Positions 508 through 9,468 of a stretch of DNA of 40,324 bases are shown piece by piece. The DNA comes from Balneolales bacterium. Lineage in GTDB: Bacteria > Bacteroidota > Rhodothermia > Balneolales > Cyclonatronaceae. Each line of letters starts with the position of its first letter. Within the stretch, counting starts at the first letter, position 1. The stretch covers positions 1-40,324 of the forward strand of contig JAFIET010000032.1 in the NCBI GenBank assembly GCA_020832405.1. The letters run 5' to 3'. Under the pieces are notes generated by a model, which ran no database searches, was not told where the DNA came from, and worked only from the letters and a program-made list of their open reading frames with translations. A program made the position numbers and the translations under genes.

Positions 508-550
508 AAAGCCGCTGCAATCCTGAAGAAGGACTGCAGCGGCTTTTTTA
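508..550. terminator. Bidirectional terminator between MFS and the minus-strand peptide/protease transcript
   Basis: A 12-bp perfect stem (508-519 with 535-546) encloses a 15-nt loop. In the plus direction it is followed by six T. In the minus direction it is followed by a TTTGTTTGTTTT tract. It can therefore stop minus-strand transcripts from the S8 protease and small peptide, and back up the MFS terminator. Confidence 0.7.
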
Positions 551-615: not shown

Positions 616-753
616 TTAGCTTTGGGTTGACGGAGGCGGCAGGGATACCGGATCCCCCAGCGGCCCTGGTGGCAGTGACATTAAAACAGCGGAAGTAACA
701 TTATCAAAATCGGTGACCCGAATTTCGGGCTTTTCATAGGTTATCTTTTTCAT
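616..753 (-). CDS. Small 45-residue peptide with leader-like N-terminus and Pro/Gly-rich C-terminus
   Basis: An ATG at 753-751 opens a 45-codon frame ending with TAA at 618-616. The N-terminal half (MKKITYEKPEIRVTDF) is charged and has a YxxPxI pattern. The C-terminal half (LPPGPLGDPVSLPPP and four further residues) is rich in Pro, Gly and Ser. It has no signal peptide, membrane segment or cysteine. It starts 32 bp after the stop codon of the S8 protease and is followed by two hairpins, which suggests the last gene of that transcript. No Shine-Dalgarno is visible, as is common in this phylum. The layout resembles short Bacteroidota peptides that begin MKK-x-Y-x-K-P and the YxxP leader motif of lasso-peptide precursors, but no maturation enzyme is nearby. 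Function unknown; I do not recognise a named family. Confidence 0.6.
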   Translation of the reverse strand: MKKITYEKPEIRVTDFDNVTSAVLMSLPPGPLGDPVSLPPPSTQS

Positions 754-785: not shown

Positions 786-3700
786 TTATTTGATGAGTGT
801 CATTTTCCGGGTATCGGTGAAACTGCCTGCCTGCAGGCGGTAAATGTAAACACCGCTTGAGAGACGCCGGGCATCAAAAGGAACGGTGTGGAAACCGGCA
901 TTTTGGGTGCCGTTTACAAGTACCGCAACACGCTGCCCCTGAATGTTGAATACTTCGAGGCGCACTTCTGTATTCACCGGAAGCGAGTAGCTTATTTGAG
1001 TAAGCGGGTTGAACGGGTTCGGGTAGTTCTGCATGAGTGAGAAACTGCGCGGCTGCTCAGTAACCGGCTCAACAGAAGTCGGAACGCCATAGCTGATAAT
1101 CAGCTCAAAGCGGTCTTCCAGATCAAGGTTAACCAGCTCAGGGCTCTGTGCAATGCTCACAGCATCCATGTTGCGGGCGGTAAGCACGCGTTGCAGGTTT
1201 GAGTGGCTCGGCGTATTGATGAAGGTGTACGGATGGCCTTCCGCAAGCTCGTGTACGATGCCCGTGAGGTTATCGCGCACGCTTACGAAATAATCAGCTG
1301 CCCACCCATCAAAACCGTCAAGATTGAGGCTAAAGCTACCTGCATGGGTTGATGCAAATGAAATCGGAATCGCTAACTGCTCACCGTAGGCTAACTCGTG
1401 ATTTTGTAATACTTCAAGGCTGTTGCCTTCACCTCTGATGCCAAAGCTGAGTGCAGGCACCGTAAGTGATTGCGGACGCGCAACTGAAGTCTGAACCTCA
1501 TCATTCGTTCCCAATAGCGTAATTACTGCAAGGTCAGAGAGCTCTCCATTGCTTACTGAAAGCGCAAGGTATGGAACCAGCTGCTCATTATGCAGCTCAG
1601 CGCCCCTTTCAGTTACAGCATAGGTCTCACGGAAATCAATGAAACCAGTTACCCGGTTGGCAACTACCCGCGCCTGAAAACCTTCAAAGCCACGAATAAC
1701 GCCATCATGCGCAATCATACCTGCAAGGCCTGACATCGGGAAACCGAAGCTCGGACGGAATGTGCCGCTGCCGAGATTGGCTTCGTTATCATAAACGAAG
1801 ATAGTAGAGAACACGCGGTTCAAACCACCTTCAGCCACCAGCGCATTCCAATCGATATCGAACGGATACGGGTTGGCGGCCATATTCCAGCCTGCTTCGT
1901 TAACCGGCTCAACGGCAGTTGTTTCACCTTCTGTGCGGCTGAGAACTACCCGTACATTGCGGTTATTTCTGCGACCATCAACCGTAAGTGTTTTGGGCCA
2001 TGTTACCGGGCCACCGATTTCATTTCGGTCAAACATGTAAACAAGAACGCTGCGGCCTGCATTGTTGAAGCTTCTCACATCTGAACCTGAACCAACAACA
2101 TTGGTTGCATTATTTGGTGCGTACCATTCTTTGTCGGCTTCAACATAATAAAGTACGTTAGGTTCTGCATTCGGATTTGACGATGCAGAGCCCGGGTAAC
2201 CCTGTGTCCAGATGTCTGAAAACAACTCACCGTAGGTTGAGCCGCGCACGGGTGTTGAAACCAGTCTCCATCCTTCGGTTCCGCTAAACGTTTGTGTCCA
2301 GGTTCCGAAGAAGTTATATACCGTAAGTTCGGCTGAAAGGGTGAAGACAGGCTCGTTGAATGCATTGCTGCTGATGTGCAATCCACCTGTGTATTCAGCG
2401 GGATCGAGGCCTTCTGCGTCGAACGTTACGGTAATCTGTGCTGATTCACCGGGTGCAACTGTTCCGCTGCTGATATCAGCGGAAATCCACACCGCCGGAC
2501 TCTCCTGCAACCCTTCTTCATCAGGTAATGAACCATCAAAGCCGGGTCGTAAGTCGATGGTTGTGAACGGTGTGATCGTGAATTCGAGGTCCTTGGTACC
2601 GGTATTAAAGATCATGAAGGTTTGCTCAGCTGTTTCTGCGAAATCAGGATACAGTTCAAGCTCTTCAGACATCTCTGATTTATCGAGGCTGATCAGCGGG
2701 GCATCAAACACGTTAACCATCAGGTCAATAATGCCAACCGGTGTTGCCGGTGAATTCGTTGTAACACGAATTTCGCCGGGATAAGCACCTTCGGCGGTTT
2801 CTTCCGTGTTAGCGGTAACATTAACGATTACAGACTCCTCCGGCGCAAGGGTTCCGGTACGGACATCAAAGCTGAATAACCCGTCTTCGGTGAGGCCGAT
2901 TACGTTCACAATATGTGCAACATCGGAGAATCCTAAAGATGCAAGGGAAGCCGGTTCATCAATACCACATGCAGGGGCCTGGATATATGACGGAGCAGAT
3001 TCTCCGGCACCGTTAGCACCCGGGAACATATCGCTGATGGGTGATTCCGGAACTTCGATTTCAGCAACAATCGTAGCACCGGCAGGAATTTGAGCTGATA
3101 CGGGGATAGTAATAACCGACCCGTCGCTTGAGCTGTCAATCGGGAATGAGGACTCCCCTACAAGTGTCATATTACTATAGGTAAAATCACCATCAAGCAG
3201 ATAAACGCGCGCAAAACTTTGCAGCGGGCTTCCTGTTGCCTGAAATAATCCAAATTGCAAAGCTGTTACCTCAATACCACCTTCAATATCAAAGTCGGTA
3301 AGGGTGTATGTTCTCAAAAAGCGGTTAAGAGCAGTTGTGGTATCAGCACCGCAACGCACCCCTAAACCGGAAGGCACCTGGGAGTTTGAATGGGTGAGAA
3401 TCACTTCATTGCTCAGCAGGCCGCGCGTAAAGAAAGTCTGACCATTATTGGTTCGTGTTTCAGTACGTTCTATTGCGTTCAGCCCGGACTGCGTGAAGCT
3501 GTACTCGCCGGAAACCATTGCATAGTCATCGCTTTCGCTGCGTGCCCGCAGCTCAACTTCGGTAACTTCACCCTTTGGGGTTAAAATCCTCTCCTCAGCA
3601 TCAAGTGCATCACCGCCAACGCTGAAATCCATATCCGACTCGCCGTCGTTGGTAATGGTGAAGCTGAATAAGCCATTGTTTCCTACAAGCACGTTCACAA

Positions 3701-6700
3701 CAGCAGATGTTGGGTCGAGCGAGAGAAAACCGGGATTCACAGCACTGGCGCTAAGGCTTACCGTATGTGAACCATCGTTGGTATCAAAGCTAAGCAGAGC
3801 CGTTTTGCTGCCGTCGCTTGTGGGTGCGAACTCCACAACTATGGTTCGGCGGACACCGCTTTCAAGGCTGAACGGCTCAGCATTCACCACAAACTCGTCG
3901 CTGTTGGAAGTGATACTGTTCACATCAAGCGGGATTGAGCCCATATTGCGGATAGAGAAACTTCTGGTAATTGTGTTACCTACAAAAATTTCAGGGAAGC
4001 TCAGCACTTCTGTGCTCGCGGTAAATGCCGCAGCATCATCCACATCAAGAACTACCTGAACCGAAGCAGAAGGTGTTACCGGGTCGTTTGAAAGCACGGT
4101 TAGGGTATTGGAGTATGAACCTCCGGGATACCGGCGTGCATCAAGCGTGAGGTTTATGGTTTCAGAACTGCCTGGCTGTACGATACCGCTTGCCGGAGAT
4201 ACGGCCATAATATTCCGCGCATTACGGCTTAGCGTAATAGAACCATTCCAGGTTTGGGTTCTCGGAATTACACCTAAGGCACCGGGATCAGCATGTACCA
4301 AAGATATATTTAGTCCGGCGAGATTCAGCGGGGTGGGGATAGCAACCGGTGTTGTTACCGAATTTCCGCCGCCCGGCCAGTTAATCCGGTTTGGGCCAAT
4401 ATTCACAGTGCCCCCTACCTGAAGCACAACTGTACCAGCATTAACCGCAGCGCCGCTATGAAAAACAAGTGCCAGGGCACGTGCCGGGGCTGCCAAAAAG
4501 GTACTTGCACGGCTGAAGTTTGGTGTAACCGATACGACTTCACCAATCAGATCTGAATCAACCAATACACCGGCAAGCGATACGAGGGACAGCCCTGAAA
4601 AGCTTATGGGGTAATTCAGGCTTTCAAGTTCTTCATCCTGAAGTACAAACCCTTCAAAAGCTGCCATGATATCACGCTCTGATGGCTCTGCAGTTTCAGC
4701 GGTAAGGGTTCCGTTCAGGAAGGCCTCAATCACCGTTTTGTGCATAGTAGCAATCATGATGCCCTGATCTTCTGCCATTACCTCAAAATAGCGGGCAGCA
4801 AGTGCTTCACGGATTTCAGCAAACTCCGCAGCATTTGGGTCAAAAATCCGGGAGGAAGTAAAGCCGGGCAGGGTGTACAGGAGCGGACCGTCGCCGTCGT
4901 TGGTGATGTCGAACGCGGCATCGATAAAGCGCCCGCTGAGTCCGGATGCCGTAACAGACCCGGAACCAAGATTTACAACGGGGGCGTTGATACCTTCACC
5001 TGTTACATCTATTGTAATTATGCCATTATCAGCATCATCACTTTCAACAGTGATTATTCCGTCAAAAACGCCAATCGATGCGGGTGAGAAGGTCACATTT
5101 ACCGCCAGCGACTGTCCGAAATTCAGTGTTACAGGGTCAGAGAAATCTACGCTGAAGGTACCATGATCAGAAGTTACGGAGTTAACGGTAACCGGATCAT
5201 CATTGGAGTTGATCAGACGGAAGCTTTTTGTGGAGGTCAAGCCCTGAACCACAAAGCTGAAGTCAATTTCACTCACGTTGGCAGAAAAACTGCCGCCGCC
5301 AAATGAAGCAAGTGCAGCGCCGGCATTTATTCTGGTTCCGAGTTGACCAACAAAGTTCGGGTTGCGTGCGTCGATGTTATCGCCGGTGAAAACCATACGG
5401 TCGTAGATTTCCTGAGCGGTGAGGCCCGGCTGATAGGAAGCAATCAAGGCAGCCACACCTGCAGCATGCGGCGATGCCATAGAGGTACCGCTGAAAGCAG
5501 AATAGCCGCCTCCCCTTACGGTGCTAAGAACAGCCGAACCCGGCGCTGACATATCAATCCAGGGACCGTAGCAGCTAAAATTTGATTTCCGGTCGTTCTG
5601 GTCTGTAGAAGCGATAGCAATAACTTCAGGGTTTGATGCGATCGGCTGTGTTGGGGTAGCACAGGTACTGTTTCCTGCTGCGAAAAATACAACCCCACCC
5701 TGTACCGGACCTACTGCATTCCCTTCAGCGTCAAAACCGGCATTTTGAATAAAATAGAGAATAGCGTCGCGAAGTGCCTGTGAAGCCGCACCACCACCCC
5801 AGCTGTTGTTCGAGATAACGGCACCGTTATCTGCGCCATAAACAAAGCTTTGGGGGAAACCACCGGTGCTGTTGTTGTTGCCAAAGGTTCGGGCTGTCAT
5901 AATCTGCACCCCGGGGCCGCTTTCGTTACCTCCTGCTACACCCGCAACCCCGATACCATTACCGCTGCGGGCAGCAATTGTACCAGAAACGTGTGTACCG
6001 TGATCGTTGGCGTCTTGTATGTCGCTGTTATTATTGACAAAGTTCCAGCCATGAATATCACCGTCGAATCCGTTTTCCGGACCCGGAAACGGATTAACCC
6101 AGAGGCTTTCAACAAGATCCGGGTGTGCGAGATCGATACCTGAGTCAACCACCTTTACAATCACATCCTGACTTCCGGTAGTGAAATTCCAGGCCGGAAA
6201 CAGATTGATGTGAGCGCCCGGTGTTCCTCCGGTCTGCCCGGTATTGTTGTAGTGCCACTGCTGAGGCAGCAGGGGGTCATTGAAGTTTAAGATCTCATCA
6301 AGGCTGAGTGCTTCACCCATGTGATACCGCACATACACCCTTTCAGCTACCTCAATTTCCGGCAGGCTGCTATACAGGTTTGCAAGCTCAGCTTCTTCAA
6401 CATCTGATTCATAATACAGCTTAAACCAGCGGTCCAGACCATGACGGCGGTGCCTTTCAGCAAACCGCGGGTCGGTTACAAATACCTGCTCCATCGACAG
6501 AACATTAAACTGTTCGCTGAGCATATCAACTGCCGAAAGACCCGATAGCCGGGGGTTGTCAGCAAGTGCCGACCGGTTCAGTAAACCGGTAGCATCAGGC
6601 GCAAACTTGATCTTCAGATAACCTTTATGCCATTCGATCTGATCCTGCGCGGTTACTGATGCTGGTAAGGCCAGCATAATCACTGCAAGGCACAACACCA

Positions 6701-6734
6701 GCATCCTGCACATTGTAAACTTAGTTAGTTGCAT
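786..6734 (-). CDS. Giant secreted S8 (subtilisin-like) serine protease with T9SS type A sorting domain
   Basis: With the ATG at 6734 the product is 1982 residues and opens with a signal peptide (MQLTKFTMCR then a hydrophobic core ending in ASVTA-Q). An in-frame ATG at 6758 and a TTG at 6779 are alternatives. A ~120-residue propeptide-like region precedes the S8 domain (about 160-480), which has the full triad: Asp197 in VVDSGID, His245 in DHGTHVSG, Ser418 in SGTSMASPHAAG, and oxyanion Asn355 in FFAAGN. Several Ig-like repeats follow that resemble ASPM/SPD-2/Hydin or choice-of-anchor modules (recurring FxIxNxGxxPL and SNDPVTP patterns), interrupted by a helical insert near 640-750. A GWRLVSTPV...GWNMAANPYPF region leads to the last ~85 residues, a Por-secretion/T9SS type A domain (NYPNPFNPLTQISYSLP). 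The expected role is an exported or surface-anchored protease that crosses the outer membrane by T9SS. No T9SS machinery gene is in the window. Confidence 0.93.
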   Translation of the reverse strand: MQLTKFTMCRMLVLCLAVIMLALPASVTAQDQIEWHKGYLKIKFAPDATGLLNRSALADNPRLSGLSAVDMLSEQFNVLSMEQVFVTDPRFAERHRRHGLDRWFKLYYESDVEEAELANLYSSLPEIEVAERVYVRYHMGEALSLDEILNFNDPLLPQQWHYNNTGQTGGTPGAHINLFPAWNFTTGSQDVIVKVVDSGIDLAHPDLVESLWVNPFPGPENGFDGDIHGWNFVNNNSDIQDANDHGTHVSGTIAARSGNGIGVAGVAGGNESGPGVQIMTARTFGNNNSTGGFPQSFVYGADNGAVISNNSWGGGAASQALRDAILYFIQNAGFDAEGNAVGPVQGGVVFFAAGNSTCATPTQPIASNPEVIAIASTDQNDRKSNFSCYGPWIDMSAPGSAVLSTVRGGGYSAFSGTSMASPHAAGVAALIASYQPGLTAQEIYDRMVFTGDNIDARNPNFVGQLGTRINAGAALASFGGGSFSANVSEIDFSFVVQGLTSTKSFRLINSNDDPVTVNSVTSDHGTFSVDFSDPVTLNFGQSLAVNVTFSPASIGVFDGIITVESDDADNGIITIDVTGEGINAPVVNLGSGSVTASGLSGRFIDAAFDITNDGDGPLLYTLPGFTSSRIFDPNAAEFAEIREALAARYFEVMAEDQGIMIATMHKTVIEAFLNGTLTAETAEPSERDIMAAFEGFVLQDEELESLNYPISFSGLSLVSLAGVLVDSDLIGEVVSVTPNFSRASTFLAAPARALALVFHSGAAVNAGTVVLQVGGTVNIGPNRINWPGGGNSVTTPVAIPTPLNLAGLNISLVHADPGALGVIPRTQTWNGSITLSRNARNIMAVSPASGIVQPGSSETINLTLDARRYPGGSYSNTLTVLSNDPVTPSASVQVVLDVDDAAAFTASTEVLSFPEIFVGNTITRSFSIRNMGSIPLDVNSITSNSDEFVVNAEPFSLESGVRRTIVVEFAPTSDGSKTALLSFDTNDGSHTVSLSASAVNPGFLSLDPTSAVVNVLVGNNGLFSFTITNDGESDMDFSVGGDALDAEERILTPKGEVTEVELRARSESDDYAMVSGEYSFTQSGLNAIERTETRTNNGQTFFTRGLLSNEVILTHSNSQVPSGLGVRCGADTTTALNRFLRTYTLTDFDIEGGIEVTALQFGLFQATGSPLQSFARVYLLDGDFTYSNMTLVGESSFPIDSSSDGSVITIPVSAQIPAGATIVAEIEVPESPISDMFPGANGAGESAPSYIQAPACGIDEPASLASLGFSDVAHIVNVIGLTEDGLFSFDVRTGTLAPEESVIVNVTANTEETAEGAYPGEIRVTTNSPATPVGIIDLMVNVFDAPLISLDKSEMSEELELYPDFAETAEQTFMIFNTGTKDLEFTITPFTTIDLRPGFDGSLPDEEGLQESPAVWISADISSGTVAPGESAQITVTFDAEGLDPAEYTGGLHISSNAFNEPVFTLSAELTVYNFFGTWTQTFSGTEGWRLVSTPVRGSTYGELFSDIWTQGYPGSASSNPNAEPNVLYYVEADKEWYAPNNATNVVGSGSDVRSFNNAGRSVLVYMFDRNEIGGPVTWPKTLTVDGRRNNRNVRVVLSRTEGETTAVEPVNEAGWNMAANPYPFDIDWNALVAEGGLNRVFSTIFVYDNEANLGSGTFRPSFGFPMSGLAGMIAHDGVIRGFEGFQARVVANRVTGFIDFRETYAVTERGAELHNEQLVPYLALSVSNGELSDLAVITLLGTNDEVQTSVARPQSLTVPALSFGIRGEGNSLEVLQNHELAYGEQLAIPISFASTHAGSFSLNLDGFDGWAADYFVSVRDNLTGIVHELAEGHPYTFINTPSHSNLQRVLTARNMDAVSIAQSPELVNLDLEDRFELIISYGVPTSVEPVTEQPRSFSLMQNYPNPFNPLTQISYSLPVNTEVRLEVFNIQGQRVAVLVNGTQNAGFHTVPFDARRLSSGVYIYRLQAGSFTDTRKMTLIK

Positions 6735-6779
6735 GAATTGATTGATTTTAAGATACATGAATCTGTTTATTGCACACAA

Positions 6780-7398
6780 ATTTCCATACCCTTTGATGGT
6801 GCTTTTGTAACAGCAGTCCGGTTCTCACCTGTACTTAACAGGCATAACCTATGTTCATTCTTTTAAACCGTTAGATATTGCGCGGTAAATCAGAACTATC
6901 TGTTACTATGCTACTTCTCAGCCGGGTACCTTACCAGTTTTTGAGCAGGGGCCCTCAAAACCTGCTAACCCCCCTTTTATCCTGAGTTACAAGCTCAGTC
7001 GGGGGTTTTCCATTCTACAACACCATTTTAAGACACGGAGATCATCCCGGAAAATTAAGGTTTAATTTTACAGGAAGCATTTAAGGCCTTAATACCCGTT
7101 TAAACTTTAGGGTTGGTGCTGAGCGAATATGCACAGGGAAGTTGTAAATTACACCTGGCCAAACAAATCACTGATATTAATTTTAGTATATAAATAACAG
7201 CATTAACCACACTTGTTTTAACACACTCAATAAACCTATCTGCACATATTTTATACAAACAAATACTTACAGCTATACGACCATTAATAGATATTTTACC
7301 TAACCAAAGCCTGTAAAGCCGGCACTGTCCGGTATTATGTTACCGGGCTCTGTTTCAATTTTGAACAAATATACATGGCTGATTTACAGAAATCGGGG
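6780..7398. other. Intergenic region between the subtilase and the outer-membrane protein
   Basis: About 650 bp, AT-rich between 7080 and 7320, with no convincing open frame on either strand. It holds a nested hairpin at 6967-7008 and a weaker one at 7327-7348 (GTCCGGTA/TACCGGGC, loop 6 nt) that could end the outer-membrane protein transcript. A TATATTTG (-7-like) box reads minus at 7373-7366 but has no TTG at the right distance. The subtilase promoter presumably lies here, but I cannot place it. Confidence 0.5.
6967..7008. repeat. Nested inverted repeat (hairpin) upstream of the subtilase
   Basis: The outer arms AACCCCC (6967-6973) and GGGGGTT (7001-7007) enclose an inner CTGAG/CTCAG stem (6982-6986 with 6994-6998). 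In the plus direction it is followed by TTTT. No plus-strand gene ends here, so it may be a structured 5' leader of the minus-strand subtilase mRNA rather than a terminator. Confidence 0.4.
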
Positions 7399-9468
7399 CT
7401 AAAACCTGAAACGGGCAATGATTTCAACATTAGGATAGGTCGTTCGCCTTGCGCGGCTTTCAGCTGCCCTGAAGGCCTCCCTGAACTCTTCCGGATACTC
7501 CGTGTAAAGCCGCTGCCGAACCGATTGCAGCTGATACCAACCGTTCACATAAAGCTCGTTCCTGGCATAGAGCGGCAGCTTCATCTCCACTACCGGACCC
7601 CATTGTATTGTAGTCTGCCGGCCGGGTGCTGTGCGGCTTCTGTTTACCGGTGCTGCATCATCAGGCCCAAAAGTTTCTGCATTAACGGTTGCCCGCGGCA
7701 GGTAATCGAATTTCACGAAATAGCGGAGTCCCACGGATGTGCGAAGCGCGCCTGACTGATGCGTGAGTACGGCGCGGCTGTCCCAGGTGATGAGGGTATC
7801 GGTGGGAATTTCCCGGAACTCGCTCCAAAGCAGGCGGCCGATACGAAGCTCTGAGCGGCTTACGGAAAGCGAGGCTTCCCACTCCCGGTCGAGGCGCACC
7901 TCTGCTTCGCTCTGTACCCTGAACTCCCGCGATGCCTGATCGTTGTTGGGTCTTCCGGGCAGCTGAAAATCATCGACCGTATAATTGGCTCGAACCAGAA
8001 ACTGATGCCGGGTGCGCAGCCAGGGGGCTGGCGCCCATTCAACAGCAGGTGCAAACCTAAGAGACCGCCGCCAGTTGTTTTCGATACTGCGTTCCGAAAA
8101 CAGATAAACTGTGTGTGTGGCCTCACCGGCCAAAAGCATGCTCAGGCTGAACTGATCCGAAAACCGGTGCCGGTTGGAGAGCAGCAGCTGCCAGAAAAGC
8201 TCATCGCGGTCATCGCGGTTAATTTCGGGCGTATCGTAGTTGAAGATGCTTACCCGGCCGCTGAGCTGCGTGGTGTTAGCACGGCCTGCCTGCAAAAAGG
8301 CCGTACCAAACAGCTCGAAGCGCTGCTGTTCAAAGTTTGAATTTATGAGGATGTCCGTGCGCTGCCGCTCCGTTTCAACGCTTGCAAGGCTCTCCCCCCT
8401 GCTAAGCAGCCTCGCCTGTCGGCTGCCGATGCTGTACAAAAATCCGGCCCGTACATCGGCCGGGCCTTCATTATACCGGCCTTCAAACCGGATGGTGTAC
8501 AGCTGCCGGTTTATTTGGGTATCGAAGAGTTCCTCCTCAATGCCATCCACAAGCGCCTGATTGCGTACCGTGCGCACATTCAGAAGGGTGCTGAAATCTA
8601 CTCTTGCCTGAATGAGCTCCGATATCGGAAAAAAAGCAGTCGCCACTACATCGGTGGTGTCGTTGCGAACCGACTCGATGAAATCGGTCTGCTCCCGGTT
8701 AAAGAAACTGCTCGCCTGATAACTGTCCCGGATGTTCCGGGCCAGACCGACTTCGGCTTCGAGGCGGAAGTTTTCGATATCAAGAAGCGAACTTGTGCCC
8801 AGCCGCCAGTTTTGGAAGGTTCTCGGACTGATGTCGGCGTAGTCGGCATGCAGCCGGGCCTGTAGCAGGAAATCTCCCGCTTCAAAGGGTGCGCTTGAGG
8901 CCCGCAGCCCCAGCAACAGACCCTCATCGCGGATGCCGCTGCGTTCATCCTGCATGAAGCCGGCGAGCCCGGCAATTTCGTAACCCTCAAGCGGCATCCA
9001 GGCCGCACCGGCCATGGCCCAGTCCTGCCGGAGGTTGGTACTTGTGATGCGCACCGAGCGCGACTCAAGCAGCAATGCCCCCTGCTCATGAACCCGGAAG
9101 GCGCCGTTGAGGCGGGCAATATTTTCATCCTGAATATTCTGAGGCTCGCCTCTAAGCAGGTAAAAACGCGAATTAAAAACGTTGCCCAGCTCAAACGAAA
9201 AGGATTCGGTGGTTTGCTCAAAAGCCCCGCTATAGGTCCAGAAAAAAGAATCCAGCTGCCGGCGGAAACGGGCTTCGCCGCTCAGCCCAAGCCCCGGCCC
9301 TGAAGCGCTGCCCGGCACAAAACCCGGCTGAGGCGACTGCGCGAGAACAGCCCCGGCATCCTTCATCCCCAATGATAAAACCAGCCACAACACAGCCGTC
9401 AGCCAAAAAGGCCGGCAGCGGTGAAGCAGCGGATTACACTCAGATTTTGATGTAAGGGGGATGGGCAT
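7399..9468 (-). CDS. Outer-membrane beta-barrel protein, family not recognised
   Basis: The ATG at 9468 gives 689 residues and places a clean signal peptide at the N-terminus (hydrophobic FWLTAVLWLVLSLGM, then a small-residue cut region AGAVLAQ). The frame extends upstream to 9591, but those residues are not signal-like. The mature chain is a succession of amphipathic strands with alternating aromatic and polar residues and many Arg/Asp/Glu turn residues. It ends in EIIARFRF, with the terminal Phe that marks substrates of the BAM outer-membrane assembly machine. No plug, TonB box, OmpA or peptidase domain is visible. It stands alone, divergent from the RNA methyltransferase. A CAAAACTA at 9561-9568 (TAGTTTTG on the minus strand) could be its -7 box, but no matching -33 box was found. 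The role might be as a porin-like or surface structural protein; the specific function is unknown. Confidence 0.75.
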   Translation of the reverse strand: MPIPLTSKSECNPLLHRCRPFWLTAVLWLVLSLGMKDAGAVLAQSPQPGFVPGSASGPGLGLSGEARFRRQLDSFFWTYSGAFEQTTESFSFELGNVFNSRFYLLRGEPQNIQDENIARLNGAFRVHEQGALLLESRSVRITSTNLRQDWAMAGAAWMPLEGYEIAGLAGFMQDERSGIRDEGLLLGLRASSAPFEAGDFLLQARLHADYADISPRTFQNWRLGTSSLLDIENFRLEAEVGLARNIRDSYQASSFFNREQTDFIESVRNDTTDVVATAFFPISELIQARVDFSTLLNVRTVRNQALVDGIEEELFDTQINRQLYTIRFEGRYNEGPADVRAGFLYSIGSRQARLLSRGESLASVETERQRTDILINSNFEQQRFELFGTAFLQAGRANTTQLSGRVSIFNYDTPEINRDDRDELFWQLLLSNRHRFSDQFSLSMLLAGEATHTVYLFSERSIENNWRRSLRFAPAVEWAPAPWLRTRHQFLVRANYTVDDFQLPGRPNNDQASREFRVQSEAEVRLDREWEASLSVSRSELRIGRLLWSEFREIPTDTLITWDSRAVLTHQSGALRTSVGLRYFVKFDYLPRATVNAETFGPDDAAPVNRSRTAPGRQTTIQWGPVVEMKLPLYARNELYVNGWYQLQSVRQRLYTEYPEEFREAFRAAESRARRTTYPNVEIIARFRF

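Follow-up and report, generated by a model that had tools for sequence, protein, structure and literature searches.

What does a 45-residue peptide do when its gene lies directly behind that of a giant exported protease in a Balneolales bacterium? The original prediction for the stretch of DNA analysed here (40,324 nucleotides, hereafter the window) described a complete ATG-to-TAA frame 32 bp past the protease stop, followed by two hairpins, and considered a ribosomally made precursor, a protease inhibitor or chaperone, or a free regulatory peptide. The frame is as described, lies on the reverse strand, and encodes MKKITYEKPEIRVTDFDNVTSAVLMSLPPGPLGDPVSLPPPSTQS at the end of the following unit:

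786-6779 (-): S8 subtilase exported by the T9SS, with Ig-like repeats; its gene lies upstream of the peptide gene and in the same direction (Pfam)
801-1025 (-): T9SS C-terminal sorting tail of the subtilase (Por_Secre_tail, 4e-8)
616-753 (-): 45-residue precursor-like peptide gene, of a 14-member family in three genomes, dN/dS 0.05-0.07
508-546 (-): intrinsic terminator at the end of the protease-peptide unit (terminator scan)

As for the two hairpins, the scan gives the intrinsic terminator, a strong one (546 to 508 in reading direction), and the region around the peptide gene has four terminator-like sites against 0.9 expected from shuffles. A GC hairpin and T-run, as read from the sequences, also lie just 3′ of most other family copies.

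The peptide ORF is a real gene, far beyond chance. The homologue search of related genomes suggested in the original prediction recovers, by profile, five copies in the same genome (G000), six in the congener G003, and three in G005. Between the window peptide and its G005 orthologue, differences are distributed 10/3/21 over the codon positions, with an excess at the third, and dN/dS is about 0.05-0.07 for the orthologue and paralogue pairs with a computable dS. With the frame conserved and under purifying selection, the objections on conservation that the original prediction raised against itself fall away. No copies were found in the other three of the six congener genomes searched (G001, G002, and G004), and nothing convincing outside the genus in more than 400 other genomes from the rest of the order and the sampled phylum. 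Order-level matches at E 0.02-0.1 were rejected for stops in frame or a missing motif, and two weak matches outside the genus, from a conserved-block profile against 394 phylum genomes, were rejected as chance because the ORFs have no leader. One family alignment (A3) used to scan genome contigs matched only the G003 MAG record, and another (A2) was too variable for such a scan. Pfam and NCBIfam give no match for the peptide, and phosphoglycerate kinase matches from a PDB profile search were rejected as chance.

The N-terminal consensus of the family is K-x2-Y-x2-P-x-[IL]-x5-D-x3-S-x-V-L-M-S, and the tail behind it is variable and mostly rich in Pro. K3, Y6, P9, D17, S21, V23, L24, M25, S26, and P28 are invariant or nearly so in the 14-member alignment, and any two members are on average 53% identical over K3-S26. 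To judge from the sequences, a conserved block with a variable tail is the pattern expected of leader and core; together with the conserved frame it supports the idea of a ribosomally made precursor. The parts of the peptide would be as follows, with offsets compared to those of linear polyphosphorylated peptides (LPP):

721-738 (-): Y6-E-K-P9-E-I11, putative RRE-binding motif, with Y6 and P9 invariant in 14/14 members
691-693 (-): Ser21 (Tyr+15), proposed last leader residue before a predicted cleavage, Ser in 13/14 and at the offset of LPP T-1
676-678 (-): Ser26 (Tyr+20), invariant, proposed phosphorylation site by analogy with substrates of HprK-like kinases
619-675 (-): Pro-rich variable C-terminal tail (putative core region), 38% identity versus 53% in the conserved block

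The YxxP motif pointed out in the original prediction is thus a fixed property of the family, and it fits the [Y/W]xxPx[L/V/I/F/A] of lasso and LPP leaders (PMC13381572). When small ORFs with a charged opening and [YW]xxPx[ILV] were sought in 202 kb of genus DNA, family members alone matched.

The genomic setting points to T9SS cargo. The protease upstream of the window copy has 1997 residues (Peptidase_S8 5e-40 and Por_Secre_tail 4e-8 in Pfam). Directly upstream of 11 of the 13 testable copies, at a gap of 27-176 bp, is a same-strand gene with a T9SS C-terminal tail, recognised by Pfam for seven of these genes and by eye for the others; the copy L039, at a contig edge, was left out. Two copies lie behind a Dpp5-type S9 peptidase, and in one of these cases the gene that follows the peptide is a DUF285 gene with a T9SS tail. 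With each set of orthologues counted once, a T9SS-tailed gene precedes the peptide at 9 of 10 testable loci, and even 9/11 would give p below 1e-9 on the assumption that such tails occur in 1-5% of genes, a fraction chosen in view of about 40 tail-like DNA matches in the own genome. The window copy and the copy on contig C36 share a duplicated 3′ block (69% DNA identity over 616-1459), so for this pair the link is partly due to the cargo tail and the peptide having been duplicated together; the copies C20, C162, and L037 have different spacings and cargoes, and co-duplication does not explain theirs. Other cargoes upstream of family copies are GLUG-repeat and DUF285 proteins with unrelated main domains, and the link is therefore with T9SS cargo, not with proteases. 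A position behind S8 genes, which the original prediction proposed to check in homologues, is shown for the window copy only, although the gene upstream of the G005 orthologue also has subtilase-like sequence. In G005, the window protease corresponds to two same-direction ORFs (L032:4088-5194 and 5258-8788, span 4088-8788), which may reflect a frameshift or stop, or a real split. About 260-280 bp downstream of two cargo-peptide pairs are homologous hybrid two-component regulators (L028:1206-5189 and L036:4343-8368) of ~1,330 residues and 27% identity, which are possible sensors.

The original prediction also called for RRE genes elsewhere in the genome, and PqqD (PF05402) is encoded on contig C158 of G000. 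Among the congeners, the peptide-bearing genomes G000, G003, and G005 all have PqqD, and G001, G002, and G004 have neither PqqD nor peptides; with n = 6 genomes (Fisher p 0.1, two-sided), this co-occurrence taken alone is no more than suggestive. Other members of the order encode PqqD without the peptides, and in some cases it belongs to a lasso-type cluster (L106). One family member in G003 has two same-strand PqqD genes (Pfam) behind it, at distances of 192 and 545 bp. This tandem PqqD/RRE pair (L037:5025-5662 and 5937-7043, on G003:C116) is an unusual arrangement, and after it comes a gene for a Rieske-type oxygenase that resembles glycine betaine monooxygenase. In G000 (L045) and G005 (L046), genes for an HprK-like kinase and a signal-peptidase-like protein (SpI; sigpep_I_arch 8e-12, below the curated cut-off) run divergently from PqqD, which lies about 30 bp before, and in tandem with, a MXAN_6640-type metalloprotease bearing a T9SS tail. 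In neither of these two genomes do the precursor genes adjoin the RRE locus; they lie at a distance from it or on different contigs. Neither the HprK-like kinase nor SpI was found in G003, an 89%-complete MAG. Among the ORFs beside the RRE, no NTP transferase or MsbA-like transporter was recognised by eye, and no asparagine-synthetase-like cyclase was seen beside the RRE or peptide genes.

Residues N44, D81, and F85 of the RRE align with N33, D70, and F74 of LppB, which in the crystal structure hold Tyr and Pro of the leader (PMC13381572); for this match, the offset between the paper numbering and the PDB chain was counted by hand. The RRE model has a pLDDT of 85, and its nearest structures are TbiB1-leader complexes. 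Recognition of the leader by the RRE is well supported at the level of sequence. In the kinase, His150, the P-loop, and Asp189 are retained and correspond to the BsfK motif established by mutagenesis (PMC10368454), and its model matches HprK and PEPCK. In SpI, Ser51, His89, and Asp108 are invariant and equivalent to S29, H68, and D93 of LppS. Phosphorylation, cleavage, and function of the peptide are what we infer.

LPPs are products of the lpp clusters of Bacillota (Popov et al., 2026, PMC13381572). They are defined by SpI, an RRE, an HprK-like kinase, an NTase, an MsbA-like transporter, and the precursor motif YxxPxVLxHQxIxFETxxS; the kinase phosphorylates Ser3 (Y+18) and SpI cuts after T-1 (Y+15) (PMC13381572). 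In 2026 they were described as restricted to Bacillota, with a role not known (PMC13381572). The genes described here resemble LPP in the discrete RRE with YxxP-binding Asn, Asp, and Phe (G000, G003, and G005), in the HprK-like kinase with intact catalytic motif and the archaeal-type signal peptidase with Ser-His-Asp (both in G000 and G005 and not found in G003), and in the locus without a cyclase. The precursors also have a YxxPx[hydrophobic] leader, a variable C-terminus, and a hydroxyl residue at Y+15 (Ser here) with a Ser shortly after. On the other hand, the host lineage is Bacteroidota-related, the precursors are scattered behind T9SS cargo genes, and no NTase or MsbA gene is at the locus; the full motif is not found, with HQ and FET missing and an extra VLMS in the leader, and the invariant Ser is at Y+20 instead of Y+18. 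The peptide family would work like LPP but is not classed as a member. The phosphorylated lasso peptides of the Bsf type from Bradymonas (PMC10368454) likewise have a YxxPxL leader, a discrete B1 RRE, an HprK-like kinase, and a Ser near Y+19, and in BsfA the kinase phosphorylates the Ser at Tyr+19 (PMC10368454). Unlike in the Bsf type, the B2 leader peptidase was not found here and none of the lasso cyclase signs were seen. The sactipeptide StsA (NF045558) has a weak leader resemblance (E 0.12, far below cut-off), and the SPASM domain (PF13186) of the corresponding radical SAM enzymes is absent from all six congeners. Literature on HprK with PqqD and signal peptidase, and on RiPPs with T9SS, yielded nothing direct.

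We favour, with a probability of roughly 0.58, the reading that the peptide is the precursor of an RRE-dependent, probably linear phosphorylated LPP-like RiPP with dispersed genes tied to T9SS cargo. Given the gene order, a T9SS-cargo transcript would carry the peptide gene at its end. A trans-encoded PqqD-type RRE, with its binding residues present, would bind the leader via Y6-x-x-P9-x-I11; the HprK-like kinase, with its catalytic residues in place, may phosphorylate the invariant Ser26, and the archaeal-type Ser-His-Asp signal-peptidase-like enzyme would remove the leader after about Ser21. The released Pro-rich core might then act at or outside the envelope beside its T9SS cargo, which is the weakest step. 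Against this reading count the co-occurrence in only six genomes, the kinase and SpI not found in G003, the RRE locus without NTase or MsbA, the precursors away from that locus, the missing full LPP motif, and the Ser offset of +20 instead of +18/+19. It is possible, if doubtful, that one central set of RRE, kinase, and peptidase acts on precursors from many dispersed genes. Each precursor would then be dedicated to a single T9SS surface protein and co-expressed with it, and the phosphopeptide would be a partner or tag of that exported protein.

Alternatively, the peptide may be an RRE-dependent RiPP precursor that receives another primary modification from an enzyme elsewhere in the genome, while the kinase and peptidase encoded next to the RRE act on something else. 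This would suit G003, with its six peptides, two RREs, no detected HprK-like kinase or SpI, and a Rieske oxygenase after the RRE pair, but it is unlikely because SPASM radical SAM proteins and lasso B2 were not found and the HprK-like kinase and SpI adjoin the RRE in G000 and G005. It is likewise improbable that the peptide remains unmodified and works as a small protein, perhaps with an envelope or regulatory role alongside T9SS cargo, the YxxP likeness and RRE co-occurrence being incidental: the T9SS adjacency (11/13) is strong and the co-occurrence sample small, yet YxxPx[IL] fits known RRE leaders, RRE genes lie directly behind one family member, and the YxxP-binding residues of the RRE are intact.

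A lasso peptide precursor is strongly disfavoured despite the YxxPxI leader, an RRE related to lasso B1, and genuine lasso-type clusters in the order (L106). The core is without the conserved ring Gly1 and Asp/Glu acceptor, and the B2 leader peptidase (PF13471, Transglut_core3) was not found in G000, G003, or the single-contig G005, which makes the lasso-type maturation hinted at in the original prediction unlikely. The dedicated subtilase inhibitor or chaperone, also raised there, is suggested by the 32 bp spacing behind the protease but is very improbable since the cargoes differ, with paralogues behind non-protease cargoes (GLUG and DUF285) and a Dpp5 peptidase.

Related arrangements occur in the wider Bacteroidota. 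HprK-like loci of other members (L124, L125, and L128) combine RRE and S24/S26 variously, and distant RRE/HprK loci have small ORFs with [YW]xxPx[LI] (YETPSL in L127; WIPPEL and WVKPEL in L128). The strict small-ORF pattern has 5 matches in 198 kb of RRE/HprK-type loci, where crude block shuffles give 1.0 on average. L127 (G099:C1, 6721-10243) encodes in one direction a YxxP peptide, a fimbrillin-like lipoprotein, PqqD, and an HprK-like kinase. Here again a YxxP peptide is paired with a surface protein, as a second case, and such pairing may be wider in Bacteroidota. L128 (G372:C227, 2522-9676) has two HprK-like genes, radical SAM genes, PqqD, an S24/S26 peptidase, and the WIPPEL/WVKPEL small ORFs, and is apparently an uncharacterised RiPP cluster in another Bacteroidota family. 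In G010, a PLP decarboxylase (L104:7793-9172) near a PqqD-like match has the N-terminus MEKLTFERPVIQKI, which resembles an RRE-binding leader motif.

The precursors lie far from their likely maturation genes, and cluster-based mining would miss them. An LPP-like enzyme set is present in a Bacteroidota-related genus, whereas LPPs were described as restricted to Bacillota, and it provides a compact system for testing. The attachment of the precursor genes to T9SS cargo genes is a concrete clue to function, pointing to the cell surface and secretion.
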